From a virus, in IMG/VR virus record IMGVR_UViG_3300028283_000324, positions 1 through 38,237 of that record: DNA of 38,237 nucleotides; one strand, given 5' to 3'. Below are positions 3,821-38,237 of this stretch, piece after piece; the stretch's first letter is position 1; each line of letters starts with the position of its first letter. The notes below the pieces were generated by a model. That model searched no databases. It saw only the letters and a program-made list of their open reading frames with translations, and had not been told where the DNA came from. Made by a program: the position numbers and the translations under genes.

Positions 3821-3822
3821 TG

Positions 3823-4989: not shown

Positions 4990-4993
4990 GATC

Positions 4994-5251: not shown

Positions 5252-6132
5252 GGAAGATTGGTGTTTTCACGGATTAGGGCCTGTGTAGATTTGACTGCGT
5301 TCTGAATGATCGTGTCAATCTCAATCAGCCTGTAGGCGAAAATAAGAGTCCCGGAATTGATACGGAATATGAATTCGGCATTAAGCGGAATACAGGGCAT
5401 CCCCTGGAAGATGGGAATATTCAACTGTATTTCCTCCGGAATGTCCAGGGAACTGTTGATGCCGGCCTTGGCGTTAACATCTTCCTTGAATTCAATGTGT
5501 ATCCCGGTATTCGTGCGAACCTTCGATGTGACGCGGCTCTGGGTTGTGGCCTCAAGAGTCAGCGCAATCTCCATCAGGGTTGCACCACTGGGCGTAAAGA
5601 TGTCACGGCGACGATCTTTGAGGAATTCGACAAACCCGGCCTGTTCAAAACTCTTTTTGTTCATTCCCTTCCAGGCGGAGAACTCATCGGAGGCGCGGAG
5701 TATGAGACTTGCCCTGTGCGTCATCCAGTTCGCCATGCCGGCGGCTCCGGGCTCGTGATAGTCTATGATTGCCGTGAATTTATAGGGTGCCTGCTGGTTC
5801 TCGACGAATATCCTGGTTGAGTCGCTCTTGTGCTCATTCACGTATTCGACAAATGAAGACACGTCGAAGAATTCCAAGTTGATGCGCTTCCGGTCGGGAT
5901 TGGCTTTTTTGAGTTCCTCGGAAAGGTTTACCACCTTGAGACCGTCAGCCCCCGGGACGATGATGAAAGGAACGCTGCCGTCCTCATTGTATTTCTGAAC
6001 CGATGAAAAGGTTGACTGCCTCTCGCCAAGCTGGAACATGTATTCCAATGCGTCTTTATTGACCTCTGTCACATTGATTGAAGATTTCTGCACGTTCACG
6101 CCTGTACCTGTCTTTTCTGCTGGATTCGCCAT
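5227..6132 (-). CDS. DUF2303 (YfdQ-like) phage protein
   Basis: 301 aa, a usual length for DUF2303. Recognisable segments include VPGADGLKVVNLSEEL near the N-terminus, FVEYVNEHKSDSTRIFVEN, the AIIDYHEPGAAGMANWMTHRASL core, FVEFLKDRRRDIFTPSGATLMEIA, and a C-terminal beta-rich part with IPIFQGMPCIPLNAEFIFRI. The family is widespread next to phage recombination and replication genes; its biochemical role is not established. SD is CAGGAG 11 bases upstream. The gene ends in TAG, one of several amber stops used normally in this genome. Confidence 0.85.
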   Translation of the reverse strand: MANPAEKTGTGVNVQKSSINVTEVNKDALEYMFQLGERQSTFSSVQKYNEDGSVPFIIVPGADGLKVVNLSEELKKANPDRKRINLEFFDVSSFVEYVNEHKSDSTRIFVENQQAPYKFTAIIDYHEPGAAGMANWMTHRASLILRASDEFSAWKGMNKKSFEQAGFVEFLKDRRRDIFTPSGATLMEIALTLEATTQSRVTSKVRTNTGIHIEFKEDVNAKAGINSSLDIPEEIQLNIPIFQGMPCIPLNAEFIFRINSGTLIFAYRLIEIDTIIQNAVKSTQALIRENTNLPCFIGKIV

Positions 6133-6221
6133 TTTGATATTACTCCTGTGATTTTTACTTGTTTTTGATTAGTGCCGGTTTTTCAGGACAGCCGGCAAAC
6201 CTACTCTGGGGGTTTAAATCC

Positions 6222-6548
6222 TTATGCTTTCATGTTGAATTTGAGTTGACGCGGATCATCGCGAAGCAGGCGATTATCGTCAGACGTGAAGAATATTGAA
6301 ATCTTCTTGTCCGGCTTGGGTATCTTGGTAACCGAATCATCAACGATCCGGACCGATGAGACATCCCCTTTACTCAGAGGCTCAATCTTAAGTGTCAATA
6401 CGAGTTTTCCCGGCTTGCATGTCTCGCGGACTCCGGCGATCACCTTTTCCAAATCCCCGGACGCTTCGAAAAGAAAATCACCGCCTCTGATTTCCTTGAG
6501 CACGTCCACCAGATTCACTTTTGCACTGTCTGTCGTTTCTTTTACCAT
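6222..6548 (-). CDS. Hypothetical early protein
   Basis: 108 aa from the ATG at 6548, which has AGGGGATAAGAAG in front; an ATG six codons upstream lacks a separate SD. The product (MVKETTDSAKVNLVDVLKE...) has mixed alpha/beta character with a GGDFLFEASGDLEKVIAGV segment. It lies directly upstream of DUF2303 and is transcribed with it, so it may be its partner. No family recognised. Confidence 0.6.
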   Translation of the reverse strand: MVKETTDSAKVNLVDVLKEIRGGDFLFEASGDLEKVIAGVRETCKPGKLVLTLKIEPLSKGDVSSVRIVDDSVTKIPKPDKKISIFFTSDDNRLLRDDPRQLKFNMKA

Positions 6549-6552
6549 CTTC

Positions 6553-6696
6553 TTATCCCCTTTCATTTGATTTATTCTGTAACGCTTCTAAAACCTTCAT
6601 TAATAATTCCGACAATTCCGCATCTTCAGGCTTTTAAACCGAAGCCTGAAAAAGCACATCAAATAATTTCGCCAGTTCCTTTTTATTCAGTTCCAT
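6553..6696 (-). pseudogene. 47-codon small gene split by an in-frame TAA
   Basis: The ATG at 6696 has AGGTGA in front and sits 4 bases after the upstream stop. Twenty codons (MELNKKELAKLFDVLFQASV) end in TAA at 6634-6636. The same frame then continues with KPEDAELSELLMKVLEALQ to a second TAA at 6553. Both halves are helical and acidic/basic in balance, and spacing to the neighbours fits one gene across the whole interval. Either a nonsense mutation, two peptides, or stop read-through. See the hairpin placed exactly on the stop. Confidence 0.45.
6625..6650 (-). other. 9-bp perfect hairpin with the in-frame TAA in its loop
   Basis: TTCAGGCTT (6625-6633) pairs with AAGCCTGAA (6642-6650) around an 8-base loop. 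The first three loop bases on the plus strand (6634-6636) are the complement of the in-frame stop. There is no U-run, so it is not a normal intrinsic terminator. It may be an mRNA structure affecting translation of the split small gene, or the trace of a small rearrangement. Confidence 0.55.
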
Positions 6697-6699
6697 TTT

Positions 6700-6855
6700 T
6701 CACCTGCTGACCATAGCCCAGAGGAAAAGTATCCAGCCGGCAACCGCTATGACATTCCTGATACTCCAGAATCCCTGACCATGCTTTCCGTCATGTATCA
6801 TCCTGAGTACTCTGTTCACCCTGATGATTTCCGAACTCGATTGTTGCTTGAACAT
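6700..6855 (-). CDS. Small single-pass membrane protein
   Basis: 51 aa, not previously obvious because of its size. The ATG at 6855 follows AAGGGGGATCAG, a strong SD. An amphipathic basic N-terminal half (MFKQQSSSEIIRVNRVLRMI) is followed by a hydrophobic segment (NVIAVAGWILFLWAMV) near the C-terminus. This suggests an inner-membrane protein with its N-terminus cytoplasmic. Early phage membrane peptides often act in superinfection exclusion or host modulation, but nothing identifies the role here. Confidence 0.65.
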   Translation of the reverse strand: MFKQQSSSEIIRVNRVLRMIHDGKHGQGFWSIRNVIAVAGWILFLWAMVSR

Positions 6856-6865
6856 CTGATCCCCC

Positions 6866-7024
6866 TTATTGTTTTATCCCTAATTTCTTCAAAACCTTTT
6901 GTTTGGCCGTAACTCGACACTTCTGTATCTCGACGGCATTCAACCCATCTTTGCCTGTAGTATTGTCAAGAATCGCCGCCACTTCCTCCGCACACGCCTT
7001 CTGAATCATCTCCTTAACTTTCAC
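6866..7024 (-). CDS. Small hypothetical protein, GTG start
   Basis: 52 aa beginning at GTG 7024, with AAGGGGACGG immediately upstream. An in-frame ATG five codons later has a weaker SD (GTTAAGGAG is itself coding). Sequence is VKVKEMIQKACAEEV..., helical, with two cysteines. Stop TAA precedes the next SD by a few bases. Function unknown. Confidence 0.55.
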   Translation of the reverse strand: MKVKEMIQKACAEEVAAILDNTTGKDGLNAVEIQKCRVTAKQKVLKKLGIKQ

Positions 7025-7065
7025 ACCCGTCCCCTTCCTTTTTGTATTGTCTGTGCCGTCTGTGG

Positions 7066-7212
7066 CTAAAATCCGAATCTTCCCGGCTTCATCCCCAGTT
7101 CCTCCAGATGCACCCTTGCCGGCGGCGCATAACGCAGATACCTGACCAGCATCGGCGTGTTTGTCCTGACTTTCATCCCGTTCACAACCTTCACAAACCG
7201 TCTGCTTTTCAT
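7066..7212 (-). CDS. Small basic hypothetical protein
   Basis: 48 aa from the ATG at 7212, which has GAGGAGG in front. The product (MKSRRFVKVVNGMKVRTNTP...) is strongly basic and could contact nucleic acid. Ends in TAG. It belongs to the run of five small genes between 7212 and 6222 that share strong SD sites and tight spacing. Confidence 0.6.
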   Translation of the reverse strand: MKSRRFVKVVNGMKVRTNTPMLVRYLRYAPPARVHLEELGMKPGRFGF

Positions 7213-7272
7213 ATTTCAGCCTCCTCTCTTAAAACTTTAGAACTTACGCACTTCAGAACTTTCTAACTTCTT

Positions 7273-7564
7273 CTATCCTTCTCTTGCCGTTCTCATCATT
7301 TCTTTATGCAATGGCATCACCAGCTTCCGGCGGTACTTCTTTTCCAGAACAACATACGGTTTTGTCCGTTTACTTTCCCAAACGTCGTCAATGAACCTGT
7401 CGAGCTCCCGGATGTCCCATAAATCCTTTTTTTGTGCCAAAACCGAGACTTGTAAGTTTCAGGGGAATCCCGAGATCAAGCCACAGCATTTTTCCAATTC
7501 CGAGATAGCACATGGCCTCCTTAGTGCTTAAGAGTCTGCGCGGACATGTTGACATATTTGACAT
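7273..7564 (-). pseudogene. Excisionase-type HTH gene, frameshifted at an A7 run
   Basis: From the ATG at 7564 (AAGGGGAAATA in front) the frame reads a typical HTH_17-like start: LLSTKEAMCYLGIGK, then LGFGTKK. At the T7 run 7427-7433 (A7 on the coding strand) the frame is lost and ends soon after (GFMGHPGARQVH). With one A fewer it would continue DLWDIRELDRFIDDVWESKR..., exactly the expected end of this DNA-binding family, through to a TAG at 7273-7275, about 52 residues more. So the intact gene is about 96 aa and resembles AlpA/Xis-type regulators. Real mutation, programmed shift or sequencing error cannot be separated from the sequence. Confidence 0.65.
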
Positions 7565-7610
7565 TATTTCCCCTTTTTCTTTCTGGCGACTATCGACCGG
7601 CGACCAGCGT

Positions 7611-7748
7611 TTATTCATCCACCCTGATTAATAACGGCCTTGCAAAACTGCGTTTTATCCTGATCATGACCTTGGCTATATTGATATCCTCCGCCTCCAC
7701 GGTCCAAAGTTTTTCAGACCGACCGTCCTTGAATGTGTACTTCTTCAT
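7611..7748 (-). CDS. Small hypothetical protein
   Basis: 45 aa from the ATG at 7748, placed 6 bases after AAAGGTG plus an extra in-frame ATG at 7754. The product (MKKYTFKDGRSEKLWTVEAEDINIAKV...) looks like a compact beta-alpha domain. The upstream 40 bases contain repeated ATCAGT units, with TAATCAGT twice 13 bases apart. Function unknown. Confidence 0.55.
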   Translation of the reverse strand: MKKYTFKDGRSEKLWTVEAEDINIAKVMIRIKRSFARPLLIRVDE

Positions 7749-7800
7749 CTTCATCACCTTTCTTCACTGATAACTGATTACCGATCACTGATTACTGGTT

Positions 7801-8322
7801 TCAGGCCTGCAGCCAGTTTATGCACTCATCGTAGCGGTCAACAGTGATTTCCTTGTAGTTTTTGAAACCCAGACTGGCCAGAAACGCGGTAATCTCCGAT
7901 GGCCGTTTGCCGGATTTCTTTCCGATTGCATAAAACCGTCCGGACTGCTTGTCGGATATACGGCCTCTCCCGGAACTGGAATTACTTGTAGCCGGTGGCG
8001 GTGTGGATGGGGGAGGCTGTGGCTGATAAGTGTTTAAAGGCGGAAGAGTCGGCTTGTATGGTGTTTGTTGCTGTGGCGGCTTTACCGTTTCCTGTCCTCT
8101 GATGTCCTCTAATGTCCTCTGGTTTTCAGACTGCCTGTCCGGCGTAGCCGAGGCGAAGACGGATGGCTGGCTTTCTAACTCTGGATAAAGAAGCAGGCGG
8201 AGTGATTCGACACGCTCCAATAACCGCTGATCGTTTTGTTTCCTGGCCTCGCCTCCAAGCAGGCAAAGCCCGTGATGCAGTATTGCCCTCTCCAATTCCC
8301 CGATTTCAAAATTCCTTTTCAT
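7801..8322 (-). CDS. Early protein with recombination-type C-terminal domain
   Basis: 173 aa. Residues 1-50 are helical. A proline/glutamine-rich disordered linker spans about 52-118. The C-terminal 50 residues (RISDKQSGRFYAIGKKSGKRPSEITAFLASLGFKNYKEIT...) resemble the small helical domain found at the end of phage single-strand-annealing and related recombination proteins (pattern ISxxQxxRLYAIAxxxG...YDxIIxWL). I infer a DNA-recombination or replication accessory role; no annealase core is present. SD AAGGGGGACAGGG precedes the ATG. Confidence 0.55.
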   Translation of the reverse strand: MKRNFEIGELERAILHHGLCLLGGEARKQNDQRLLERVESLRLLLYPELESQPSVFASATPDRQSENQRTLEDIRGQETVKPPQQQTPYKPTLPPLNTYQPQPPPSTPPPATSNSSSGRGRISDKQSGRFYAIGKKSGKRPSEITAFLASLGFKNYKEITVDRYDECINWLQA

Positions 8323-8406
8323 CCCTGTCCCCCTTATTGAAATTTTGTTATTCCCTGCGAACCCCGCAGATTTGATTTCTTATTTTCCCGTTATATCTTT
8401 TCCCTT

Positions 8407-8634
8407 ATGGAATCGCCCCAAATCGTAAATATTGCCTATGACAAGGCCAGCGGTGTCACCTACCGCGTGAAGGCCTACAGGAACCTTTCGCCGGAAGAGT
8501 TCCATTGGGTTGTCCGCACGAAACTTTCTCTAATGAAAAAAAGTGAACGACCACACCGAGGCGGCTCTTTGACTTTTGACTATTACGGACAGGATGCATC
8601 AGGCTTTCTGCAAGGAGGCGACCTGTTTTTCTAG
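8407..8634 (+). CDS. Possible small protein opposite to the operon
   Basis: 75 aa (MESPQIVNIAYDKASGVTYRVKAYRN...FDYYGQDASGFLQGGDLFF). Composition is protein-like over its full length, and better than the reverse-strand frame it overlaps at 8456-8634. Against it: no Shine-Dalgarno before the ATG, opposite direction to the whole early operon. No promoter recognised. Kept as possible. Confidence 0.38.
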   Translation: MESPQIVNIAYDKASGVTYRVKAYRNLSPEEFHWVVRTKLSLMKKSERPHRGGSLTFDYYGQDASGFLQGGDLFF

Positions 8635-8767
8635 TGAGGTGCATTTCAATCCGGGGATGCGGCGAAGCTGAAAGGGTAATACGTATTCCTTTCTTTGTGT
8701 GCTCTAGCACCAATATCCTTTTTAAATAACTCCTCATGTCTATGTCTTTTCCCGTAAGTTTTTCCAT
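8456..8767 (-). CDS. Small hypothetical protein downstream of the RHH gene
   Basis: 103 aa from the ATG at 8767, with AAAGGGG 8 bases upstream and 28 bases after the RHH stop, consistent with the second gene of the operon. The first 60 residues (MEKLTGKDIDMRSYLKRILVLE...) look like a real beta-rich protein. The last 40 are poor and overlap the plus-strand ORF. The true end may be lost or altered by a frameshift. Confidence 0.45.
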   Translation of the reverse strand: MEKLTGKDIDMRSYLKRILVLEHTKKGIRITLSASPHPRIEMHLTRKTGRLLAESLMHPVRNSQKSKSRLGVVVHFFSLEKVSCGQPNGTLPAKGSCRPSRGR

Positions 8768-8795
8768 CGCCGTCCCCTTTCATCCCTTGGTTCGG

Positions 8796-8978
8796 TTATT
8801 TGTCCTGTGATTTGGATTTTCTTAACTGCAACTTATATTTGCTTGACTTTGCGGATAAAAAAAGGGCAACCGCTTGACGAAGCAAGACATTCTTATTTGA
8901 AAATTCTTTTTTCGCAATTTCCTCTAGTTGAAAAACCAGCTCCGGAGGAAGCATTGTTGTTACTCTAACGCCTTCCAT
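8796..8978 (-). CDS. Ribbon-helix-helix DNA-binding regulator
   Basis: 60 aa from the ATG at 8978, preceded by AAGGAGATTGATAAA; longer frames into the promoter are rejected. The N-terminal strand MEGVRVTTMLPPEL and following helices (VFQLEEIAKKEF...NVLLRQAVALFLSA) fit a CopG/Arc-type RHH fold. The tail is basic. It is the first gene of the minus-strand operon and diverges from the methyltransferase-integrase operon, with inverted ACTTGCA sites between. Most likely it represses one or both promoters and acts as the lysis-lysogeny or operon switch. Confidence 0.7.
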   Translation of the reverse strand: MEGVRVTTMLPPELVFQLEEIAKKEFSNKNVLLRQAVALFLSAKSSKYKLQLRKSKSQDK

Positions 8979-11782: not shown

Positions 11783-11796
11783 AATTGATTTTTCCG

Positions 11797-11843
11797 GCAA
11801 CGGATTTTAAATCCGTTGCTCTATCCAGCTGAGCTACCGAAAC
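11797..11843 (-). other. attP core: 5' half of a tRNA gene
   Basis: Read on the minus strand, 11843-11797 is the 5' half of a tRNA: acceptor strand GTTTCGG, TA, D-arm GCTC-AGCTGGATA-GAGC, and an anticodon arm ACGGA-TTTAAAA-TCCGT with UAA in the anticodon position. No T-arm or 3' acceptor follows. The anticodon stem extends into a near-perfect palindrome (11797-11819, two 11-bp arms around one base). Integrases of this family commonly cross over in the anticodon arm, so this is the probable identity block shared with a host tRNA gene. Confidence 0.7.
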
Positions 11844-15883: not shown

Positions 15884-17488
15884 TTATTTAGACCACTGCG
15901 ATTTGCAAAGGTCGTCTGAGACATCTTTTCTATAGATTTCATTGCTCCCGTCCCCTGCGAGTGTCGCAGTTCCAAAATCAAACTTTTTAAAACGTTTTTC
16001 AATACCGTCAATAATTGTACGGTTTTCAACTTTGGATTTATGATTGTCATAAGTCGTCATGTAGTAGGGGCGTTCGCCAACTATTAAGGCAATTAGAGGC
16101 ACGTCTGTGGAAGCTCTGGCGAGTTTTAACACGCCATCAGGTCTAACTCCCTGATAACCAAAATTAATCACGAATGCACCTGACGCATTGGCAGGAATAT
16201 TTACACAAAGCTCATTCATGTTTTCGGAGCCGTCTTTATTTTTGCTTCCTGCATATCCACGGTATATCTCGCCGAAAACTGGAATTGTGGAATTGCCCTG
16301 GCGGACTGCATTTACAGAGTAGGCGATAAACTTAGAATCTGCTTTGAACAGATGGAGGCTTGTGCGTCTCCAGCCTACCAGATAGCCGTCGCATTGCCCT
16401 GCGAGTGTCGCAAGTCCGCTTGCGTATTTCGCAGGTTCAATAAAGATTTTGTCCTCAAGGCGTTCACGTGTGCCATATGTAAAAAACACTTTAAAGCCCA
16501 TAGCCTTTACAATGGCAATTTGCTCTGATAGTCCGTAGGTGTTTTCACCCTCCCAGACTGCCAAGACCGTGTTGTATCCCAAACCCTTGAAATATGCGAG
16601 CTCCGCAAGGAGGTTGTCACGTTCAGCCTGTGTCTGAGTAGCTTTCATTTCACAAATCATTTTTATTTGTGTCACATCCGGGACTCTGACATATTCCATG
16701 GGTGGGTAATCCTGTGAGTACACCTGTTTCCAGGCTTTCCAGATTAGGTTGCTTGATGCGATGTCTTTGGTGTATGCCAATGTGCGTTTGTCTGTGATGT
16801 AATTACGGGGATGGTCGGTTTTTTGGAACACACTTTCCTTGGCAATGCCGTCCTTCATCTTTGCGAGGTTCTCAGCAACACCTTTACCGGCATCTTCAAT
16901 GGATGGCAATATTATTTTGGTTATCAGGTCTGGGGCGCTCAGGGGCTTCTGGGTGTAGCCGTATGATACTACTGTCGGGATATTGGTAACTGGCAGGGTT
17001 AGTCCTTTGATGTCTGCCGTACTGTACTGAAAAACCGAGCCGTATGATACTACTGTCGGGATATTGGTAACTGGCAGGGTTAGTCCTTTGATGTCTGCCG
17101 TACTGTACTGAAAAACCGAGCCGTATGCCGAGACTGCGGGTATGTTAGTACTTGGTATCACAATCTTGTTGAGCAGGATTGCCGGGTTATCAACTATCAT
17201 TGCGAGTTGTGCAGAGGTTATCGTGGTGATGACAGTAACCTGTGGAATGATAATTTCAGGGATAATCACCTTAGGTGTGATTATAACAGGAATTTGTACC
17301 ACGGGGATGGTTATTGTCGGGATCGGCACGGGGATGTCTGCGCCCGCCTGTTCCAGGACCTCGGTTTCTAACGGGGTGAGTTCCTCTGATCTGACAGACA
17401 TTGCCGCCAGCATTATGGAGGCGATAATTGCTATTATCGCAATTATCAGTGACCATTCACGTTTCAAAAAGTCAATTATATTTTTCAT
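15884..17488 (-). CDS. Membrane-anchored protein with Ile/Pro stalk and barrel-like domain
   Basis: 534 aa from ATG 17488 (AAAGGAGACCGCAATA), sharing one base with the previous stop (TAATG). Residues about 9-29 are a transmembrane anchor (EWSLIIAIIAIIASIMLAAM). Next is a striking stalk of alternating Ile/Val and Pro (IPVPIPTITIPVVQIPV...), then two identical 27-residue repeats (SVFQYSTADIKGLTLPVTN...). From about residue 260 a globular domain shows a beta/alpha alternation (IKMICEMK, YNTVLAVW, GFKVFFTYG, CDGYLVGW, PVFGEIYRG, GAFVINFGYQG, VPLIALIVGERPYY) that suggests a TIM-barrel, perhaps a glycosidase-like fold. No catalytic residues assigned. It may be displayed on the host membrane or lie in the virion. 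Confidence 0.55.
   Translation of the reverse strand: MKNIIDFLKREWSLIIAIIAIIASIMLAAMSVRSEELTPLETEVLEQAGADIPVPIPTITIPVVQIPVIITPKVIIPEIIIPQVTVITTITSAQLAMIVDNPAILLNKIVIPSTNIPAVSAYGSVFQYSTADIKGLTLPVTNIPTVVSYGSVFQYSTADIKGLTLPVTNIPTVVSYGYTQKPLSAPDLITKIILPSIEDAGKGVAENLAKMKDGIAKESVFQKTDHPRNYITDKRTLAYTKDIASSNLIWKAWKQVYSQDYPPMEYVRVPDVTQIKMICEMKATQTQAERDNLLAELAYFKGLGYNTVLAVWEGENTYGLSEQIAIVKAMGFKVFFTYGTRERLEDKIFIEPAKYASGLATLAGQCDGYLVGWRRTSLHLFKADSKFIAYSVNAVRQGNSTIPVFGEIYRGYAGSKNKDGSENMNELCVNIPANASGAFVINFGYQGVRPDGVLKLARASTDVPLIALIVGERPYYMTTYDNHKSKVENRTIIDGIEKRFKKFDFGTATLAGDGSNEIYRKDVSDDLCKSQWSK
16958..17119 (-). repeat. 81-bp perfect tandem repeat, two copies
   Basis: Copies at 16958-17038 and 17039-17119 are identical, followed by 8 more matching bases. 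They encode the duplicated 27-residue unit of the anchored protein. Perfect identity at silent sites implies recent duplication or gene conversion, so copy number may vary between relatives. Confidence 0.9.
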
Positions 17489-18330: not shown

Positions 18331-21128
18331 ATTTCTGCCCCCAATACTATCCAGCAATCTTCAGCGGTCTGCATAATCATAGCCCCTGCATATTGCCCGG
18401 CAATAGTAAATGTTCCTCCCGTAGTTCCATTTAGACTAACACCAGTACCGGCAGTGATAGTAGTTGCACCAAGTCCAATCTGAATTACTGGGATTATTGC
18501 ACCAACAGGACAATGGGATGACGGATAAATATTCAAAATATTTGCTGTTGCCTTATTCATTAAAACCGTGACATTTGCCCCATAGTCAGCAAGGTTTAAA
18601 TTATGGGCATCCGTATATGTGTTGAACACTTCAGGGACTGGAGCAACTGATTTGCTCTCAGGGTTATTAATTTCCAAGGCAGGATACTGCGACAAGAACC
18701 AAGGTATTTCAGTAGGGTCTGTTTCTGCAATGAACCATTTGTATCTTATGTAGTATTGAGTATTCGTAACTACAGACTGCAAAACAACAGACAGTTTTTC
18801 CGAGTAGTACGGATTGCCAACGCCATCACTTGGAAATGCAAGCCACTCTTCACCGTCTGAAATTTTAAGATTTGTCTGAGCAGTAGCAGAATTGAAAGTC
18901 TCAACGGCAGTCCCGGAATAATCGGCAGTACTGAAAACCTCGAGGGTGAAGTGCAGCGCGGAATCGTCTGCCATTGTCGGGACACGGAAAAGAAGCGTTT
19001 CAATTGTTGTGCCGCCGCCGATTCCCAGGCATTGCACCCATGTTGCGGATGCGAAGTCGGAAGCTATCGGAGTGAGTGCGGTTGCTGAATGTATTTCGGC
19101 TCTGAACGGCAAAGACACTGAGGGAGTCAGGCTCCAGCCGGTACCCTGGGCGTCTGAAGCCCAGGCGACATAGACGAAAGCGTCAACACCATTGGTACCG
19201 TCTATTGCATCTGTTCCGTTCTGACCGTCGTCCCCTATATATTTAACCCATGTAGAGCCGGAGAAATCCGATGATACAGGAGTCAGTGCGGTTGCAGACT
19301 GTTTGACAGCCATGTATGGCAGGGATACGGACGGGGTAAGACTCCAACCTGTGCCTGTGTTGTCAGAGGCATAAGCTATGTAAACAAAGGAACTGGTGCC
19401 ATTTGTGCCATTACTGCCGTTGCTTCCGTCTTCCCCGATGAATTTTACCCATAATCCGGCGAAATCCCCAACCTTTGGGGAGCTTATGGCTGTTGCCGAG
19501 TGCAAGATCGCAATGTATTTAAGACTGGAGGAAGGGGTTGCCGTGAAGCCTGTACCAGAATTGTCAGAGGCATACCGGATATAAAGGAATGCGTCAACAC
19601 CATTGGTACCGTCTATTGCATCTGTTCCGTTCTGACCGTCGTCCCCTATATATTTAACCCATGTAGAGCCGGAGAAATCCGATAGTACAGGTGTGGAGAT
19701 TGCCGTGACACTGTGTTTTTCGGCACGGTATTTGAGGGAATTTGACGGGGTCAAGCTGAACCCAGCACCGGCATTGTCCGAGGCGTAAGCGACATATACA
19801 AATGCGTCAACGCCATCCTCTCCATCATCACCATCAGTTCCGGCCGGGCCCCGTATGGCACCGGCATTGTCCCACTGCGCACCGCTCCACACATATCCGT
19901 TGCCGCTTGCGACAACCACGTATAAATCACCGGCAGTATTCCCGTTTGCAGGCAAATCGCCGATTGTTGCTACAGAGCCTTTAAGGGAAACCGATGTGCC
20001 GTCAGCGCCATCACTGCCGTCCGAGCCGTTATCCCCGATGTATTTCACCCATATAGCAGCACTGAAATCAGAGGATGCGGGAGAGGTTATTTCCGTTACA
20101 CTGTGAATTTCCGCACGGTATTTGAGACTATTTGACGGAGTAAGGCTCCAGCCGGTACCGGCATTATCGGATGCGTAGGCAACATAAACAAAAACATCGA
20201 CACCGGCTATCCCCTGTAATCCCTGGTCGCCTTTGAGTTCTCCGCAGTCAACCCAGGCGGTGCCGTTCCAAGCCCAGCCGTGCAGGGTGTCAAGCAATGT
20301 CCACAAATCCCCGTCGGCGAGGTTTGTGGATGAATCCCCGTCGGCGAGGTTTGTGGATGGGAGGCTTGCGTAATCCGCAACAGAGCCCTTTATGGTCAAA
20401 GATGCGCCTATTACACCTTGAACTCCCTGCACACCCTGAATCCCCTGAGGTCCTTGGATGCCTTGAATCCCTTGAATCCCTTGGATACCCTGTGCGCCGA
20501 CAACCAACGCGATTGCGTCGCTCCATTCGCCTTCAGGGTAGCGTTCGCGCCAGTAGAGATCGGCGGGGACTTGCGTGTCATGCCAGAGAGTTAAGCCGTC
20601 GATACTGAATTGGAGTTCACGGCCGGCACGGAGAAGGGCATCAACCCAGGACTGGGAAGCCCAGACGGTATCAACGACCGGCGGCGTACCTACTGTCGGA
20701 TCGGGATCGTTTTCAGCGTCTATTTGAATTAATATTCGGACAACCACATATCCGTCAGCATCAAGTCCCTTAAGCCTTAGCCAAGCCTGAATTTTTTGTG
20801 ATGTTCCCACCGCCGCCAAAAAAGAAGCATAAGCGGTGGACATATTTACCTTGACTTTACCCATGTTTTTTTGACTGTCATCAATATCCGCATCTAAAAC
20901 ACGGGACATGGGTGTTCCATGGCTGAAATCTTTTGCAATACAGCATTCCCACGCCACGGCTGCCGACATATTTTTCATAGTCAGATCGGCATTGGTTGCA
21001 TTCGCAAACACATTAAAAGACAACAGTGGATGTTCCTGATAGCCGATGGAAAACGTATTTTGATTAAACGTGTTATCGGCATTAGCCGGTTTTCGAGTCG
21101 CATAATTGTAAAATATTTCGCGTTCCAT
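18327..21128 (-). CDS. Collagen-like modular tail fibre
   Basis: 933 aa. Residues 1-200 form a beta-rich base (phage fibre N-terminus, probably tail-attached). Residues about 211-241 are a Gly-x-Gln-type collagen-like run (GIQGIQGIQGPQGIQGVQG), which should trimerise. Then five ~60-residue modules follow of the form (V/A)FVYVAYASDNxGTGWSLTPSxSLKYRAxxHSxTxIxxPxxSDFxxxxWVKYIGDDG, separated by short G-S-D-G/G-T-N-G spacers. The C-terminal 200 residues are a distinct domain, likely the tip. Expected role: trimeric fibre for host-surface recognition. Near-identical modules make it prone to recombination. Confidence 0.85.
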   Translation of the reverse strand: MEREIFYNYATRKPANADNTFNQNTFSIGYQEHPLLSFNVFANATNADLTMKNMSAAVAWECCIAKDFSHGTPMSRVLDADIDDSQKNMGKVKVNMSTAYASFLAAVGTSQKIQAWLRLKGLDADGYVVVRILIQIDAENDPDPTVGTPPVVDTVWASQSWVDALLRAGRELQFSIDGLTLWHDTQVPADLYWRERYPEGEWSDAIALVVGAQGIQGIQGIQGIQGPQGIQGVQGVQGVIGASLTIKGSVADYASLPSTNLADGDSSTNLADGDLWTLLDTLHGWAWNGTAWVDCGELKGDQGLQGIAGVDVFVYVAYASDNAGTGWSLTPSNSLKYRAEIHSVTEITSPASSDFSAAIWVKYIGDNGSDGSDGADGTSVSLKGSVATIGDLPANGNTAGDLYVVVASGNGYVWSGAQWDNAGAIRGPAGTDGDDGEDGVDAFVYVAYASDNAGAGFSLTPSNSLKYRAEKHSVTAISTPVLSDFSGSTWVKYIGDDGQNGTDAIDGTNGVDAFLYIRYASDNSGTGFTATPSSSLKYIAILHSATAISSPKVGDFAGLWVKFIGEDGSNGSNGTNGTSSFVYIAYASDNTGTGWSLTPSVSLPYMAVKQSATALTPVSSDFSGSTWVKYIGDDGQNGTDAIDGTNGVDAFVYVAWASDAQGTGWSLTPSVSLPFRAEIHSATALTPIASDFASATWVQCLGIGGGTTIETLLFRVPTMADDSALHFTLEVFSTADYSGTAVETFNSATAQTNLKISDGEEWLAFPSDGVGNPYYSEKLSVVLQSVVTNTQYYIRYKWFIAETDPTEIPWFLSQYPALEINNPESKSVAPVPEVFNTYTDAHNLNLADYGANVTVLMNKATANILNIYPSSHCPVGAIIPVIQIGLGATTITAGTGVSLNGTTGGTFTIAGQYAGAMIMQTAEDCWIVLGAEI
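19180..19272. repeat. 93-bp direct repeat in the fibre gene, copy 1
   Basis: Identical over 93 bp to 19591-19683. It covers the end of one fibre module and the spacer TDAIDGTNGVDAF. The rest of the modules differ at many silent positions, so the identity is recent. Confidence 0.9.
19591..19683. repeat. 93-bp direct repeat in the fibre gene, copy 2
   Basis: Second copy of the 93-bp block at 19180-19272, 411 bp away, in the same frame. Recombination between them would delete or add two modules without breaking the frame (411 = 3 x 137). Confidence 0.9.
20306..20357. repeat. 27-bp tandem duplication in the fibre gene
   Basis: Two nearly complete copies with a 27-bp period (starting 20306 and 20333), encoding the duplicated STNLADGDS just after the collagen-like run. 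In frame, near-perfect at DNA level, so probably a recent slippage event. Confidence 0.85.
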
Positions 21129-26973: not shown

Positions 26974-27282
26974 TTACGCGCCGGTCGTTGTCGTGGTGGT
27001 AGCGCCGGTGCCAGCACCTAATGCGGTGACTCTTGTCTTTGTGGCTTTGGAATAGTCGGAATTTGACTTGTCTATGCCATGCTCGGTAACCGCAGTTGTG
27101 CCGGTCTGGCCGTTTACAGCTTCATTGGTAATCGCATCGGCGTAAACTTCCTCGGTGACAGTCTTTTCACCGCCATGAGTGGTGTAATTAAGGATCTCGC
27201 CCTTGCCGTTGACTTTTTTTGCAATGTCAACTTTGTTTGATTCTTTTACGCTGATTTCGTCGCTTGGTGTTCCAAATGCCAT
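26974..27282 (-). CDS. Small virion-region protein with poly-Thr tail
   Basis: 102 aa from ATG 27282, with AAGGAG 8 bases upstream; an upstream in-frame ATG in the previous gene is rejected. MAFGTPSDEISVKESNKVDIAKKVNGKGE... then GTTAVTEHGIDKSNS, ending GAGTGATTTTTTGA. It sits in the tail-tube position but is short for a tube protein, so it may be a small tube, decoration or minor tail protein. The Thr run uses ACC, ACG and ACA mixed. Confidence 0.65.
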   Translation of the reverse strand: MAFGTPSDEISVKESNKVDIAKKVNGKGEILNYTTHGGEKTVTEEVYADAITNEAVNGQTGTTAVTEHGIDKSNSDYSKATKTRVTALGAGTGATTTTTTGA

Positions 27283-27299
27283 TGTGTGATCTCCTTTAT

Positions 27300-27776
27300 T
27301 TAAGTTTCTGTTATGAAAATATCGCATGCCGCGAGCATCATCTGATAATCCTTGACCGGTTCAAAAGTTTCATCTCCGCCCTGGCGGACTATGCCATCAA
27401 TAGTCAATCCAGCCGCCGTTCCAAGCGTGGATTTCGTCATTGTGCGGATCAGATCAAAACACTCCCTGTAAAGGGTATTGCAGATCGCCCGGTCCTTGTC
27501 TGCCGGAATATGTGTAAGGCAAACCAGTTTCACCGGAATCTTAGAATGCGGGAATCCGGGGGCTATCGGCTCGCATGGGGCGCAGTGAATGACAATGTAT
27601 TTGGCCGGGCGATCCTCGGTTTTATTGTCCATAAAATGAAACATGGCTGTGCCGTGCCCGGCGCCGCCGGATGAAAAATAGGGCCTCTGTCCGAGCAGGG
27701 AAATAAATCCCGCCTGTAGTTTATGCTCGTAACTCTGTCCCGTTGTGGTAGTAGTGGTTGTTGTGGTGTCAGGCAT
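27300..27776 (-). CDS. Tail terminator-like protein with poly-Thr N-terminus
   Basis: 158 aa, starting MPD followed by nine threonines in mixed codons (ACC, ACA, ACT, ACG), then GQSYEHKLQAGFISLLGQRPYF. The remaining part has the alpha/beta character of head-tail or tail-terminator proteins (KYIVIHCAPCEPIAP, VKLVCLTHIPAD, IRTMTKSTLG). Position between tail completion and tube fits the terminator. The Thr run is the unusual part; see findings. Confidence 0.6.
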   Translation of the reverse strand: MPDTTTTTTTTTGQSYEHKLQAGFISLLGQRPYFSSGGAGHGTAMFHFMDNKTEDRPAKYIVIHCAPCEPIAPGFPHSKIPVKLVCLTHIPADKDRAICNTLYRECFDLIRTMTKSTLGTAAGLTIDGIVRQGGDETFEPVKDYQMMLAACDIFITET

Positions 27777-28849: not shown

Positions 28850-29878
28850 TTATCCAGCGGTTGTGGTTGTGGTTGTGGTCGCAGCCGTAGTCGTTGTCGT
28901 AGTTGCGGCGGTTGTGGTAGTGGTAGTCGTCACGGTGGACTCGTTGTCATCAACCGCATCGCTCACTACAATCTGAATCGCACGGCCTGCGGCATCCCAT
29001 GAAGCCGGGAACGGAGCCGGGGCACCAGTAGGATTCGTTGCAGTCCTGGAAGCCTGGAGCTGGCCGAGCCCCTTCATGCTCATCAGAATGCAGTTGATGA
29101 AGGGGAGGCGGTCGCTCGGGAACTTCGCGAAGAGCTGGGAAAGGAGCGCGTCCGTCACACCTTTTCCGGTCGCGCCGTCAATATTGTAGGCAAATGCCAC
29201 AGAATATTTTCCGGCGACCTGTAAGCCAAGGTATCCGCCTGCAGCAACGTTGTAATCGTTGCGGGTTGCGCCCGTGTTGATGTTAGTGATGAACGGGGAA
29301 ATGGCAGGTTCGGAATAGGTCATATTGCCGTTGTTGCCTATGATTCCGGCGACATCTTCCACGCCGACAATCATCATATATACGCGCGTTCCGCCGGAGC
29401 CGCCGACGTTGATGCTGTTGCCATCATAAAGATTTGCAAGCTGTTGGAGGCCGTCGAAACCCTTGGAGGTGTCCGTGCCTTTGATTACCTGGGCTTCGAC
29501 AGCGGCCAGACCGGCATTCAGGGAGCGCATGGTTTTCTTTTCCATGTATGCGCCCTTGTTGACCTTTCCGTCGACGGAGGCGACATCCTCATGCCATGAG
29601 AAGTCGATGTATTTGAGATCAAGCGAGCGTGTGAGCTCCTGGGCGGATGCGTTGACCACGCCTTCGCCGATAGCCCTGAATGCTACTCCGGCTGCGGTTT
29701 TCACAACCGTGAATTTGTGCTGTGTGCCGTTGGAGGCTACAATCCATGGGAGGCGTTTGAAAAACTGTGTGGGCTGGACAATCTCCGAATGTTCGAATTC
29801 GGCAAGATTCCTGTCATTCATCCGGATAATACCGTTGAGGGTATCCGGTGCGTACTGTGTTCCATTCGTGTGAGGCAT
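28850..29878 (-). CDS. Major capsid protein with Thr-rich C-terminal tail
   Basis: 342 aa, SD AGGAGATT. N-terminus MPHTNGTQYAPDTLNGIIRMNDRNLAEF..., then SLDLKYIDFSWHEDVASVDGKVNKGAYMEKKTMRSLNAGLAAVEAQVIKG and GVEDVAGIIGNNGNM, typical of HK97-fold shells; it follows the protease/scaffold as in lambda-like phages. The last 30 residues form three threonine blocks (7, 6 and 7) separated by Ala-Ala and ending AG. Codons ACC, ACA, ACG and ACT alternate, so selection acts on Thr. Such a tail would be flexible and probably exposed; see findings. Confidence 0.85.
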   Translation of the reverse strand: MPHTNGTQYAPDTLNGIIRMNDRNLAEFEHSEIVQPTQFFKRLPWIVASNGTQHKFTVVKTAAGVAFRAIGEGVVNASAQELTRSLDLKYIDFSWHEDVASVDGKVNKGAYMEKKTMRSLNAGLAAVEAQVIKGTDTSKGFDGLQQLANLYDGNSINVGGSGGTRVYMMIVGVEDVAGIIGNNGNMTYSEPAISPFITNINTGATRNDYNVAAGGYLGLQVAGKYSVAFAYNIDGATGKGVTDALLSQLFAKFPSDRLPFINCILMSMKGLGQLQASRTATNPTGAPAPFPASWDAAGRAIQIVVSDAVDDNESTVTTTTTTTAATTTTTTAATTTTTTTAG

Positions 29879-33311: not shown

Positions 33312-34175
33312 GTCCTCATCTCCTTCTGTTATGAATATTTCTTTCCACTGTGAAAAACTGCGTTCCTGAATTTCAAAGTATCTTTTCTGCTTATTTATGT
33401 CGGATTCCGAAATAATTCCAGTAATACGCTCCAGATTGTTGATGAAATCATTGTTTTTTTCAAGCCATGCGGTCAACTCTGAAAAATCAGGTTTCGAGAG
33501 CGGGAGCATTTGAAGCAAACTTAAGCGATTTGCCCACACGCCCAAGATATTCTCATGTGTGAGATTGTACGGGATATCCTTCTGTAGGCGGTACAAATGA
33601 GCACACTCCAAATCCAAGAGAACTGTCTTTCCGCCGCATAGCCAGTTGGTAATGCAAAGCATTTCCTCATCCATGCCCCAGCCTTTGCCGAAGCGCAGCG
33701 GGCTTTTCAGTTTCTCGACATAATTTGACTTTGACAGGCCGTAACATGCCCCCATCACGCAGGGTATTTCCCCGGTTGTCTTCTGCTTGCGCCATTTACC
33801 GTGCAGAATCCAGTGCTGATCCCGCTCTTTTGATTTCCATATGAATCTTGCACCCATATAGGGATTGTCGTTGAATGTCATCTTTGCATTGTGGTGACAC
33901 TTAAGGCATGATATGTGGTTGAGATTAGCCGCCGTGTATTCTGCCTGGGTGTCCAATGCTCCGGGTTTGAACCGCATATGCGCATCCGTGATGATGACGA
34001 TATCGTTTTTAGCGCGGTTTATCCCTTCGTTGCGGCAGTAGGCGCATCCTTTGCCAGACTGGTCGGATATTGCGATAATTTCAAACTCGCCGCGCTGCGT
34101 CTCCTGAATGTTGGCGATGGTCTGTTTAAGGTTTTCCGATTCATTTCGTTCCGAAATAATAATTGAGTATTTCAT
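33075..34175 (-). CDS. GT-A glycosyltransferase (GalNAc-transferase-like motifs) with C-terminal zinc ribbon
   Basis: 366 aa from ATG 34175, overlapping the upstream stop (ATATGA). N-terminal GT-A fold: MKYSIIISERNESENLKQTI..., metal-binding DAH at 64-66 (VIITDAHM), and GWGMDEEMLCI at 165-175, the acceptor-loop pattern of family-2/27 N-acetylgalactosaminyl-type enzymes. After residue 288 comes a different domain with C330-x2-C333 and C354-x2-C357 (CPHCG...CAKC), a zinc ribbon. Likely transfers a sugar from a nucleotide donor to protein or another phage product. Placed between terminase and portal, with the other glycosyltransferase immediately upstream. Confidence 0.78.
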   Translation of the reverse strand: MKYSIIISERNESENLKQTIANIQETQRGEFEIIAISDQSGKGCAYCRNEGINRAKNDIVIITDAHMRFKPGALDTQAEYTAANLNHISCLKCHHNAKMTFNDNPYMGARFIWKSKERDQHWILHGKWRKQKTTGEIPCVMGACYGLSKSNYVEKLKSPLRFGKGWGMDEEMLCITNWLCGGKTVLLDLECAHLYRLQKDIPYNLTHENILGVWANRLSLLQMLPLSKPDFSELTAWLEKNNDFINNLERITGIISESDINKQKRYFEIQERSFSQWKEIFITEGDEDMKRGRASKNQAGKVENRETPVPVVEKRTYTVASIVKDGGIPCPHCGHRHDHKVTNTYPNNRRRFECAKCKGHFISDRT

Positions 34176-34909
34176 ATTCCGTTTTCCCTTCTGAATTTTG
34201 CGCAAAGTTCCACATAATCTGTTTCCCAGTGCGGTCGGAGTTCTATTAAGCCAGTACGCATATTGGCAGCATTCAATTCTTGGAACCTAACCATGTTCTC
34301 AGGACTCTCTGGGATGCCTGAAATATGGGTTCTTATTCCACCCCAACGGTAGATGTAGTATGCCAAGGACTTCTTCCGGGGATCATTGTCAACGGTAAAA
34401 CTGTCGGAATTTGCGGAAATCCTGTTCTCAATGCTCTGATCTGCGGCGGCGTTCGCCTGATTGGAGCATCCGCCCAACTTTTTGAGCAGCCTTTTTGTAT
34501 AAAAGGCCGCACACCAGAAAAGATTATTCGATATCTCATCAATGCGGCCATAATTCCAAAAGTAGGCAAATGGCATCTTGTAATAATCAAGGCCGCCAGA
34601 TTGCATGGCGTTAATACCGTGGCTTATTTTGTGGGGCAGGAAGATGTCATTATCTTCCCATGGGGTGATAATGTCGCCGGCGGCCATATTAAAAAAGGCA
34701 TCATTGTATTTCTGGCCAAGGGTCAAATATTTCTTTTTCAGGTTTACGATTCTAACCTCCGGATGGTTGTAAATCAGTTCCCGATCCGGACAGTCGTTAA
34801 TCACAATCAATTCTTTCTCCCCCTGATAATCTTGCCGGTGGAATGATTCTATACACTCCTCCAGCCAGCCGGGACGGTTCCAAGTCGGACAGATGCATGA
34901 TACTTTCAT
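34172..34909 (-). CDS. Family 2-like GT-A glycosyltransferase
   Basis: 245 aa, SD AAAGGAGAAAA. MKVSCICPTWNRPGWLEECIESFHRQDYQGEKELIVINDCPD is the classic GT2 nucleotide-binding start. The metal motif is EDND (85-88, ITPWEDNDIFLP). Later LFWCAAFYTKRLLKKLGG and DPRKKSLAYYIYRWGG. Intact. Its first 17 codons lie inside the 156-bp repeat and are duplicated at 36171-36120 in front of the cassette gene. Confidence 0.85.
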   Translation of the reverse strand: MKVSCICPTWNRPGWLEECIESFHRQDYQGEKELIVINDCPDRELIYNHPEVRIVNLKKKYLTLGQKYNDAFFNMAAGDIITPWEDNDIFLPHKISHGINAMQSGGLDYYKMPFAYFWNYGRIDEISNNLFWCAAFYTKRLLKKLGGCSNQANAAADQSIENRISANSDSFTVDNDPRKKSLAYYIYRWGGIRTHISGIPESPENMVRFQELNAANMRTGLIELRPHWETDYVELCAKFRRENGI

Positions 34910-35087
34910 TTTTCTCCTTTATATTTGAATGAAACTTATACTTGTATTTCTTACGACTTCGTTCTTTGGTGCAACCTCCATCTCCTTGCCTTTCACTTCC
35001 GCTCCGAATACCGTAACGGCTTAAAATGTCTATGCAATCCGTCCGGCTCTTAATATCTGAAATGCTGGTTCCTGTCGCTGTACTCAT
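34797..35087 (-). pseudogene. 5' fragment of a primase-like gene running into the repeat
   Basis: ATG 35087, SD AAGGGGCGG, 10 bases after the HTH gene. The first 25 residues (MSTATGTSISDIKSRTDCIDILSRYG) resemble the first helix of DnaG/CHC2-type primases (xxIKxRxDIxDVIxRY). At 35013 the phage repeat begins and the frame continues as unrelated residues to 34797. So the gene was cut at the repeat edge. Assignment from 25 residues is tentative. Confidence 0.42.
34858..35013. repeat. 156-bp direct repeat, copy 1 (glycosyltransferase side)
   Basis: Identical over all 156 bp to 36120-36275. It contains the last ~31 codons of the terminase frame (without the rest), the intergenic SD and the first 17 codons of the glycosyltransferase. 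The unit period is 1262 bp. Confidence 0.97.
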
Positions 35088-35097
35088 TGGCCGCCCC

Positions 35098-35313
35098 TTA
35101 AATTATCGGATTGACGGCCTGTTGCTCAATCCACTTGGTCAAATCAGATTCACGATAAAACACGCGTTTTCCTAATTTATGGCAAGGGATTTTCATTCTC
35201 TGTGTGCTGTGCCAGTTCGCTAGCGTTGCCGGTGATAGGCGAAGGAAAGCCGCCGCCTCTACTCGGTCGAGAAGCTCGGATTTTCTTTCGGTCGGGGTCG
35301 TCTGCGTAGTCAT
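35098..35313 (-). CDS. AlpA/excisionase-type helix-turn-helix protein
   Basis: 71 aa, SD TGGAGG. LLDRVEAAAFLRLSPATLANWHSTQRMKIPCHKLGKRVFYRESDLTKWIEQQ is a textbook HTH_17 domain of the AlpA/Xis class. It could act as an excision factor or transcription activator. Lies in the repeat-flanked cassette with a primase-like start right behind, the gene pair common in phage satellites. Confidence 0.8.
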   Translation of the reverse strand: MTTQTTPTERKSELLDRVEAAAFLRLSPATLANWHSTQRMKIPCHKLGKRVFYRESDLTKWIEQQAVNPII

Positions 35314-35347
35314 TTGATTGCCTCCATTTTGATTAACAAATTAAATC

Positions 35348-36112
35348 TTAATGGAAGCAATTATAAGGGAAGATTATTCTATCGGCAATAGGGTAAATAA
35401 TAGTAAAAAAGACATATCTAGGAATGTCCGTTTTATTTTCACAGCCCGGCGGATTTACGCCATCTGCTAAGCGTTCTCGTGTCTGGTTGCTTAGTATTTT
35501 ATTTTGCCAGCACCAATCACGAAACATTTTATTTATGGAAGGTGTCTTTAAGTTTTTTTGTATTCCCTCTCTGTAAATAGATAAATATTTATTTCGTAAA
35601 GGTTCTGATTTTTTTAATTTTGCTTCGCGTGAATTTACTTCACTTTCATATCTGACTTCAGCGGCCTTAACGTGATCTCCATACTTCATTATCATTAATT
35701 CCTGTCCAAGGATAAACGCGGTATGTACTGCATAATGGTTAGATAAGTGTAGCTTGCTTGCGCCTTCAATTTTAAGTGTTTTGATTTCATTGAAATTATC
35801 TTGGCATTGCCTTATAAGTGTATTGAATAAACCTTGAGCAAATTTAATATCTTCCGGCTTGCAGTTAAAATCATCCAGTTCGTCAATTTGACTTTTTATC
35901 CTGAATAAATCATCTTTCAAATTTTCTGTTTCGCCTTTATCAACATAGGAAAAGATTTTTCCGTCTGGAGCCGTGATTTTCTTTACAAACTTTCTGTCTA
36001 TATCCTCTTTTCGTGTCTCTATTGCATGGATACAATTTTTACTCTTTGCCTCTGCCCTGTTTAAAATCTTCGTGTTTGTTTCTTCATACTTTACTGTTTT
36101 ATTTTTTCTCAT
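35348..36112 (-). CDS. Hypothetical cassette protein
   Basis: 254 aa from ATG 36112. Its SD (GGAGG) is the very edge of the 156-bp repeat, so the fusion supplied its translation signal. Charged helical protein (KKITAPDGKIFSYVDKGETENLKDDLFRIKSQIDELDDF...), with YLSIYREGIQKNLKTPSINKMFRDWCWQNK near the C-terminus and an odd hydrophobic end (YVFFTIIYPIADRIIFPYNCFH). AT-richer than terminase on either side. Family not recognised. Confidence 0.65.
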   Translation of the reverse strand: MRKNKTVKYEETNTKILNRAEAKSKNCIHAIETRKEDIDRKFVKKITAPDGKIFSYVDKGETENLKDDLFRIKSQIDELDDFNCKPEDIKFAQGLFNTLIRQCQDNFNEIKTLKIEGASKLHLSNHYAVHTAFILGQELMIMKYGDHVKAAEVRYESEVNSREAKLKKSEPLRNKYLSIYREGIQKNLKTPSINKMFRDWCWQNKILSNQTRERLADGVNPPGCENKTDIPRYVFFTIIYPIADRIIFPYNCFH

Positions 36113-36119
36113 TGTTCCG

Positions 36120-36275
36120 CCTCCAGCCAGCCGGGACGGTTCCAAGTCGGACAGATGCATGATACTTTCATTTTTCTCCTTTATATTTGAATGAAACTTA
36201 TACTTGTATTTCTTACGACTTCGTTCTTTGGTGCAACCTCCATCTCCTTGCCTTTCACTTCCGCTCCGAATACCG
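36120..36275. repeat. 156-bp direct repeat, copy 2 (terminase side)
   Basis: Contains the true terminase 3' end (stop at 36181) plus a 17-codon copy of the glycosyltransferase start that runs on into the cassette and stops. Partner of 34858-35013. Confidence 0.97.
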
Positions 36276-38208
36276 ATGCGCCCACTACTGTTATCTTGAC
36301 CGCGTCCGCAAGATCGTTTCTCGCGCCCGGCCTTTTTGTCCATTTCATCAGCTCCTTTCCGTTTTTATATTCGAGTTCAATCAGTTTATCGGCAATGATA
36401 TGATCCGCAATTGTCCGATGGTCGGTGTTGTTGTCGCCCCAGAAAGAATAACTGCCGGGAAATCCCGGATTCAGAAGAAATGATTTCTGGAGCCACATGT
36501 GCCAGTAGTGGGAATTGAAAATCACATGCTCTCCGCGCTTTTCCTTCTTTTCCCAGTGGCATTCGTGACCTTTGCGGATAACGGTTTTGCTGTTTTGCGG
36601 CAGATTGTATTTTTCGGAACCAAATCCACGGAAAACTAAAAAACGCACATTGGAATATTTGCGGTTGAGGAAATCAACTACCCTGTAAATGGTATCAGTG
36701 GCATAATTGCCGTCAATTCCAACAAGCTTAATGGCCGGTTGCCTAACCAGAAGCGCGTCCGATAATTCAATCACCCCGTCATAGATTGCCTGTTCGGTGG
36801 TTTTTTCGCTGTCCGGATTCCAAATGTCCCCGCCCTTCGGGTATCGGCCATAATCTATCCCGAAACTTGTCATGTCATTTTGCATGGCGGACACTGCCCA
36901 GTTAAGTGCGTAATGGTTCACATCGATGCCGGCATTGACGTAATGGCAATCTTTCGGGACGGTATTTCTTTCGAAACCATTGAGCCTGGACAGAACCATG
37001 CTGCTTGAGATAGAATAAAATTTGGCTCCAGTGCCCTGTGGTTCGTTCTGAAGTTCCGAATAAAATGAATTTTCACCATTGTCAGAAATGTAATTGTAGA
37101 TATTCTGGAGGGCGGACAGTTCATTCTTGCTTTTGCGATTTGGGTTGCCTATCACCGCCCCTTTGTTCATCTCTTTTCGGTTCTTGCGGTAAAAATCATT
37201 ACAGACCTTCTTTTCCGTTCCTTCCTTGCGCGCCTGCCTGCGCAGATCAATATATTCCTGCCATAGGCCGCGCCGATCCTTTGGATTATGTTCGTCAGGG
37301 AACTCATATAGCGCCTTCGCCCGGACCGACCGCCATTTCGAACAGATTCTTTCAATCAAATCGTTTTGCCCGATGGCTGTACCGGCCATCAATATCGCCA
37401 GCTCCACATCTACCCCGGCAAGCCCCATGACATCAGACAAGATAAGATTCTCCCGCTCTTCGCATTGCGCCATACTTGTAGCTGATTCCCGTGTTTGCGG
37501 ATCGTCCGAGAATACGAAATCAGGACGGATCACGCTCCCATTGGGAAGGGTTATCTGTAAACCCCTTAATCTTCCAGTCAATCCTCTGGCTTCTATTGCG
37601 AACCCGGCCCCGACTTCCAGATAAGCCGGATCCATTTCGACATATGCAAATCTGACACCGTCGGCTCTCCACTCAATATGCGTCGGCCTGTTATTTGACA
37701 ACTGACCCGCCGCCCTCTGGCTAAGACCGTCAAGCGCTTTGATATAAAAACAGACTTCCGGAAACAGTTCCATCATCCTATTGCTCGTTTCAAGTGTTGT
37801 TTTAACCCCATCAAGCACTTTTTCAGCCGCCGCCTGGTCGCTGCCTATGATAACCACGTAACCCCGATGACCATAACAGGCAGCCCAGACAATTGCACCA
37901 ATGATTATAGTTGTCTTACCCTCACCTCTGGGCATAGCAATACAGTATTGTCCGCCATTTAAAATTGTCTCTTGAATTTCCTTGATGAATTTTTTTTGAT
38001 CCGCTGAAAACGGCCTGGTAAACTTTTCTGAAAATTCCCGCTTCAAAAAAAGCTCAAGTTTAAACTTATATTTTTTTTTATCTTTGAGCCTTGCCGTGTG
38101 GGGATGGGTGCCCACATCGCGCCCGGCAGTACGGCGTTGGCTCATGTACTGCTGGAAATAGGCGTTTAGCTGTTTTTTCTTAACCTTATCTGTTTTTTTG
38201 TTTTGCAT
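36181..38208 (-). CDS. terL: Terminase large subunit
   Basis: 675 aa. ATPase: Walker A AMPRGEGKTT (91-100), Walker B FVFSDD (231-236), preceded by an adenine-region segment at about 70-88. Nuclease domain: acidic residues D429 (AGIDVNHYA), D499 (VGIDGNYATDT) and NDLADA (631-636), the RNase-H-like set. It packages DNA into the prohead and cuts it. The N-terminus is Lys-rich. The start has no good SD but probably couples to a preceding small ORF across the window ends. I recognise no small terminase gene. Confidence 0.92.
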   Translation of the reverse strand: MQNKKTDKVKKKQLNAYFQQYMSQRRTAGRDVGTHPHTARLKDKKKYKFKLELFLKREFSEKFTRPFSADQKKFIKEIQETILNGGQYCIAMPRGEGKTTIIIGAIVWAACYGHRGYVVIIGSDQAAAEKVLDGVKTTLETSNRMMELFPEVCFYIKALDGLSQRAAGQLSNNRPTHIEWRADGVRFAYVEMDPAYLEVGAGFAIEARGLTGRLRGLQITLPNGSVIRPDFVFSDDPQTRESATSMAQCEERENLILSDVMGLAGVDVELAILMAGTAIGQNDLIERICSKWRSVRAKALYEFPDEHNPKDRRGLWQEYIDLRRQARKEGTEKKVCNDFYRKNRKEMNKGAVIGNPNRKSKNELSALQNIYNYISDNGENSFYSELQNEPQGTGAKFYSISSSMVLSRLNGFERNTVPKDCHYVNAGIDVNHYALNWAVSAMQNDMTSFGIDYGRYPKGGDIWNPDSEKTTEQAIYDGVIELSDALLVRQPAIKLVGIDGNYATDTIYRVVDFLNRKYSNVRFLVFRGFGSEKYNLPQNSKTVIRKGHECHWEKKEKRGEHVIFNSHYWHMWLQKSFLLNPGFPGSYSFWGDNNTDHRTIADHIIADKLIELEYKNGKELMKWTKRPGARNDLADAVKITVVGASVFGAEVKGKEMEVAPKNEVVRNTSISFIQI

Positions 38209-38237
38209 TATTATTTAACGCAGTGCTTTTGCTTGAT

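Follow-up and report, generated by a model that had tools for sequence, protein, structure and literature searches.

A foreign cassette was identified in the late operon of a phage genome, between two perfect 156-bp copies of the junction of the genes for the terminase large subunit (TerL) and a family 2 glycosyltransferase (GT2). The cassette is a fragment: next to a 254-aa gene and a gene of the AlpA/HTH_17 type it contains 24 codons from the start of a DnaG-like primase gene. Relatives of these genes support an origin outside the phage, in an element of the integrase-alpA-primase type from the same host class. On balance, it was probably a two-step replication template switch that copied this piece of a Lentisphaeria integrative element into the late operon. 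The locus does not look like a functional satellite virus but like a copying accident in which foreign genes were acquired. The DNA analyzed here (the window) spans all 38,237 bp of IMG/VR record IMGVR_UViG_3300028283_000324, which is classed as 'linear'.

The two repeat copies, at 34858-35013 (copy A) and 36120-36275 (copy B), are 100% identical over 156 bp, with zero additional matching bases on either side. A perfect repeat of this length is far beyond chance, and a chance repeat was rejected as a reading. An earlier reading made from the sequence only had described two identical copies of the terminase/glycosyltransferase junction, and every coordinate it gave was exact. As it had also reported, the copies enclose a block that is 1106 bp long and AT-rich (35014-36119; G+C 37.8% versus 46.0% for the window). 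Each copy contains the last ~31 codons of TerL and the first ~17 codons of GT2, i.e., coding sequence. Copy B holds the 3′ end of TerL followed by an orphan set of the first ~17 GT2 codons (36120-36171), and copy A holds an orphan TerL 3′ end (34919-35013) followed by the genuine GT2 start. In the direction of transcription, the order on the minus strand is TerL, the 254-aa gene, the AlpA-like gene, the cut primase frame and GT2. When one repeat copy and the cassette were deleted, TerL and GT2 were rejoined with a 9-bp spacer in a normal junction. The current structure is thus an ordinary TerL/GT2 junction into which DNA was inserted, with duplication of 156 bp.

Both flanking phage genes are intact. 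TerL (36181-38208, minus strand, 675 aa) was recognized by Pfam GpA_nuclease (E 3e-8) and PHROG terminase (E 3e-27) models; its last ~31 codons and its stop are located within copy B, and it is 50% identical over its length to TerL of the nearest relative phage (L002). GT2 (34172-34909, minus strand, 245 aa; Pfam Glycos_transf_2, E 2e-10) starts within copy A and shows 38% identity to the L002 gene of the same neighbourhood. Further GT2 relatives were found in other viral contigs (L161-L164), mostly longer than 100 kb, and the 5 kb around them contained none of the remaining genes of this phage. The suggestion that the 156-bp segment is a captured packaging or control site found no support: the segment encodes the end of TerL and the beginning of GT2 and lies downstream in TerL. 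A search for it in viral contigs gave no match. Any cos or pac site would more likely be located ahead of TerL, near the end of the record, which falls ~30 bp before the TerL start. The same 8 bases, TGCTTGAT, occur at both ends of the record (1-8 and 38230-38237), just upstream of TerL, and possibly represent filled-in cohesive ends or a closed genome. Among eight relatives checked for a comparable end match, no end repeats were found at the contig ends.

Several additional features were observed in the phage genome. Perfect tandem duplications of 81 bp (16957-17118) and 27 bp (20306-20359), both multiples of three, are present within tail genes, showing that short duplications do occur in this genome. 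A 54-nt sequence at 11790-11843, scored by Rfam as a shortened tRNA-like sequence (31.1 bits), directly follows the phage integrase gene and is possibly an attachment site. Threonine codons form runs at the ends of the genes for the major capsid protein and neighbouring proteins (26974-27776 and 28850-29878), and likewise at the end of the capsid protein gene of L002 (9283-10242).

All three reading frames of the cassette are on the minus strand, and their earlier description as an unknown gene, an AlpA-like HTH and a primase-type 5′ end agreed with our results. The AlpA-like protein (35098-35313, 71 aa) is an HTH_17 protein of the excisionase/activator type, matching Pfam HTH_17 (E 4e-10) and PHROG excisionase (E 5e-9). 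The 254-aa protein (35348-36112) had no significant Pfam or PHROG family, and its predicted structure was mostly helical and too poor for use (pLDDT 47.5). Ribosome-binding sites are kept by both genes; that of the 254-aa gene, GGAGG, is contributed by the end of copy B and lies at the proper distance from the ATG. The third frame (35014-35087) begins like a DnaG primase, resembling Lentisphaeria DnaG N-termini. It is cut at the repeat after 24 codons and continues through copy A to a stop at 34797. Its 26-aa N-terminus aligned to the DnaG start of a Lentisphaeria genome (G055) with a score of 44, exceeding all 5000 shuffles, and among 19,946 ATG-started 26-mers in the fetched loci no other one matched this score. 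The 24-residue start, too short a query, had no match in Pfam or PDB, and the DnaG zinc-ribbon model had none within the window. No integrase was present at 35014-36119, nor any att-like pair in the cassette region besides the 156-bp repeat. The 3-mer profile of the cassette is moderately odd, 14 of 178 same-size phage stretches being equally extreme, and composition alone is therefore weak evidence of foreign origin.

Prophages resembling this phage are present in Lentisphaeria. A TerL profile detected 80 loci from viral contigs as well as relatives in 40 of 198 genomes in the class of a Lentisphaerae bin, and one prophage in a Lentisphaeria genome (G005) is collinear with the window. These prophage relatives, together with one binned contig, suggest a phage of Lentisphaeria-type bacteria, an assignment made at the class level. 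TerL and portal genes were both located in 38 relatives, and in 33 of these the gap between them was 0.37-0.78 kb; neither the cassette nor a duplicated TerL end was present in any of the 38. An AlpA profile also found nothing in 16 relative phage records. The TerL-portal interval does vary in the nearest relatives: in G005, TerL is directly followed by the second glycosyltransferase gene and GT2 is absent, and in L002 TerL is separated from GT2 by a radical-SAM/SPASM gene and a glycosyltransferase (2073-4003).

Relatives of the cassette genes were found in integrative elements of Lentisphaeria. In a scan of species genomes, one AlpA relative was present among the matches listed, in a Lentisphaerae bin (L090 of G003; 57% identity over 60 aa). 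Within the 198 genomes of that class, AlpA relatives occurred in 4, compared with 40 for TerL, and the AlpA of one of these genomes (G329) is closer than that of L090, at 59-63% identity to the cassette protein. The G329 element (locus L118, 5604-11852) has the gene order integrase, 235-aa gene and alpA, with the integrase directly preceding the 235-aa gene, and also carries a maturase-domain reverse transcriptase and a ParB-like gene. Its 235-aa protein, which was found via the neighbouring AlpA, aligned locally to the cassette 254-aa protein with a score of 82, compared to a mean of 36 and a maximum of 64 in 1000 shuffles. This is the one confirmed relative of the 254-aa protein, whose extra C-terminal part has none. 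Used as a single query, the 254-aa protein had no relatives in phages, plasmids, viral contigs or 388 genomes of the phylum, and a two-sequence profile detected no further convincing one.

Besides its integrase and AlpA, the L090 element (720-8837) has HTH regulators, a gene possibly for replication and a tape-measure gene similar to the one in the phage; it may represent a prophage in decay or a satellite with tail genes. Its integrase is 55% identical to that of G329, and both have an arm DNA-binding domain. The tape-measure relatives share 37% identity over 261 aa (E 2e-52), a sign that these phages and elements of this sort may have exchanged genes. Because the close relatives found for AlpA, and those of the 254-aa protein and of the DnaG start, are located in Lentisphaeria, we view the cassette as a piece of an integrase-alpA-primase type element. 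The donor would, judging from these homologies, be an integrative element and possibly a satellite. The primase is cut at codon 24 and the integrase is missing, although it is adjacent to the corresponding gene in G329; the cassette therefore reads as a raw fragment.

The template switch that we favour would have proceeded as follows. DNA synthesis would pass through TerL, enter the start of GT2 and jump from there to the element just ahead of its 254-aa gene. After copying 1106 bp of this element, in which the order would be integrase, 254-aa gene, alpA and primase, it would return to the phage 156 bp upstream of the exit point, repeating the TerL/GT2 junction and leaving both genes whole. 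The joining points would be short matches, namely GGAGG, shared by the ribosome site of the 254-aa gene and GT2 codons, and CGGTATT, shared by the primase codons for R-Y-G-I and TerL codons. The start of copy A extends the primase frame as R-Y-G-I. A random phage join would end exactly in GGAGG with p of about 0.001 and would read Y-G-[I/V] with p of about 0.004, both values being post hoc. The donor sequence itself was not found in our searches, and the matches are suggestive. Two features looked for in events of this type (MMBIR), a foreign fragment and a direct duplication of the flank, are both present. We infer template switching, microhomology at the joins, an occurrence inside a cell and a recent date.

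The joins could also have been made outside the cell. The sequence-only reading had named an assembly join of phage and satellite reads as the main alternative. A pure join of two intact genomes was judged unlikely and rejected because the cut primase and the phage have no long common sequence that an assembler could use; the joins must therefore have been present in actual DNA molecules. What survives of that proposal, as the main rival, is an in-vitro chimera, in which a piece of a mobile element was fused to phage DNA during amplification or library preparation and the path across the repeat was then retained in the assembly. The perfect repeat is about one short-read length, so that short reads probably could not span it; the donor fragment is arbitrarily cut, and the structure was found in no other record searched. 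However, both joins are oriented such that the genes stay co-directional and the flanking genes stay whole, two independent joins would need to become consensus, and a single bacterial class is indicated for both the donor and the phage, an unlikely outcome if chimeras form at random among the DNA of a mixed community. We consider such a chimera a real but lesser possibility.

A small circle composed of the cassette and 156 bp of phage DNA could also have integrated by a single Campbell-type crossover, and repeat-cassette-repeat is the exact product of such an event. However, the insertion of a circular satellite in this way, as had been proposed, implies a circle of 1262 bp without integrase and with 24 primase codons, which is not a self-sustaining satellite, and no such circle or satellite was found in searches. 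Making the circle would, moreover, need the same two illegitimate joins beforehand, and for this reason the template switch is preferred as the simplest explanation. We regard the crossover as unlikely.

Somewhat less likely still is ordinary accessory cargo, brought in by phage-phage recombination at the variable TerL-portal site with the duplication as a by-product. The nearest relatives do vary there, with the additional genes of L002 and the lack of GT2 in G005, but no phage with this cassette was found, and the cut primase and missing integrase indicate a raw fragment rather than selected cargo. An integrase-made insertion of a helper-embedded satellite at the TerL 3′ end, followed by erosion and with the 156-bp repeat as a long att identity block that rebuilds the target gene, is improbable to a similar or slightly greater degree. 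Helper-embedded phage-inducible chromosomal islands (HE-PICIs) are known from late genes including TerL, their att identity blocks reach about 250 bp (PMC10111431), and the orientation of the cassette fits. Nevertheless, no integrase is present, the 156-bp block extends past the TerL stop into GT2, and the cassette meets the repeats at the first codons of the 254-aa gene and at primase codon 24, so that deletions would have had to end exactly at both att blocks. A stripped-down form of such a satellite, a minimal passenger without integrase that enters and leaves the late operon through homologous recombination between the 156-bp repeats and whose AlpA acts on a resident element or the phage, is highly improbable. 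Other insertion mechanisms were rejected: for a typical transposon, already judged incompatible with a 156-bp duplication, there are no terminal inverted repeats, no transposase and no short target duplication, and for a self-splicing intron or homing element there is no Rfam intron in the window and no endonuclease domain.

The AlpA-like gene and the 254-aa gene would be read along with the late operon. The effect of the cassette on the phage is most likely none or slight. PICI AlpA proteins activate genes of their own element (PMC6092414); with the own element absent here, any action of AlpA would presumably fall on an element resident in the host. The template switch, one clear instance of a process already known, would, if real, represent phage mosaicism caught just after the event, with the insert and the flanking duplication visible before decay. 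It would also illustrate a way for pieces of integrative elements to be taken into the late operon of a phage while every gene there stays unbroken. In addition, it would tie a little-known phage group to Lentisphaeria and reveal the module of integrase, 254-aa-type gene and AlpA there.

Known systems resemble the locus in different ways. The Lentisphaeria integrase elements L118 (G329) and L090 (G003) have AlpA proteins 59-63% and 52-59% identical to that of the cassette, respectively, and in G329 a relative of the 254-aa gene adjoins alpA, as in the cassette. They differ in that the integrase is kept, other genes are present (reverse transcriptase, ParB-like, tape measure) and neither has a DnaG-type start after alpA. 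The nearest relatives thus sit in integrase elements with a reverse transcriptase and ParB-like gene or with a tape-measure gene, which gives no support to the view that an HTH-primase pair marks a satellite.

Gram-negative PICIs have three conserved genes, which encode integrase, AlpA and primase (PMC10111431; PMC6092414). One of them, the alpA-type regulator, is complete in the cassette; it has no integrase or att sites of its own, and its replication primase is limited to 24 codons followed by phage repeat. The order integrase, uncharacterised gene and alpA in Gram-negative PICIs and capsid-forming-PICI (cf-PICI)-like elements (PMC6092414; Salmonella L085) does resemble that of the inferred donor, whereas the cassette is a fragment only. 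The AlpA of L085, a capsid-forming-PICI-like element, is 50% identical over 52 aa to the cassette AlpA, but the protein encoded next to it is not detectably related to the 254-aa protein (305 of 1000 shuffles scored as high). HE-PICIs occupy phage late genes including TerL and have int-alpA-primase in late-gene orientation (PMC10111431). The cassette likewise has an AlpA and primase module in phage late genes near TerL; it is flanked by TerL and GT2, and the whole set is transcribed in one direction, from the minus strand. However, it lacks an integrase, and hence one of the HE-PICI clade, a complete primase and an att core, and is 1.1 kb rather than about 10 kb in size. Finally, MMBIR/FoSTeS events (e.g., PMC2621351) have been described mostly in cellular genomes, whereas the recipient here is a phage. 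The likeness to these events lies in the templated insertion of a fragment and the short flanking duplication, to which 5-7 nt of microhomology would probably be added.
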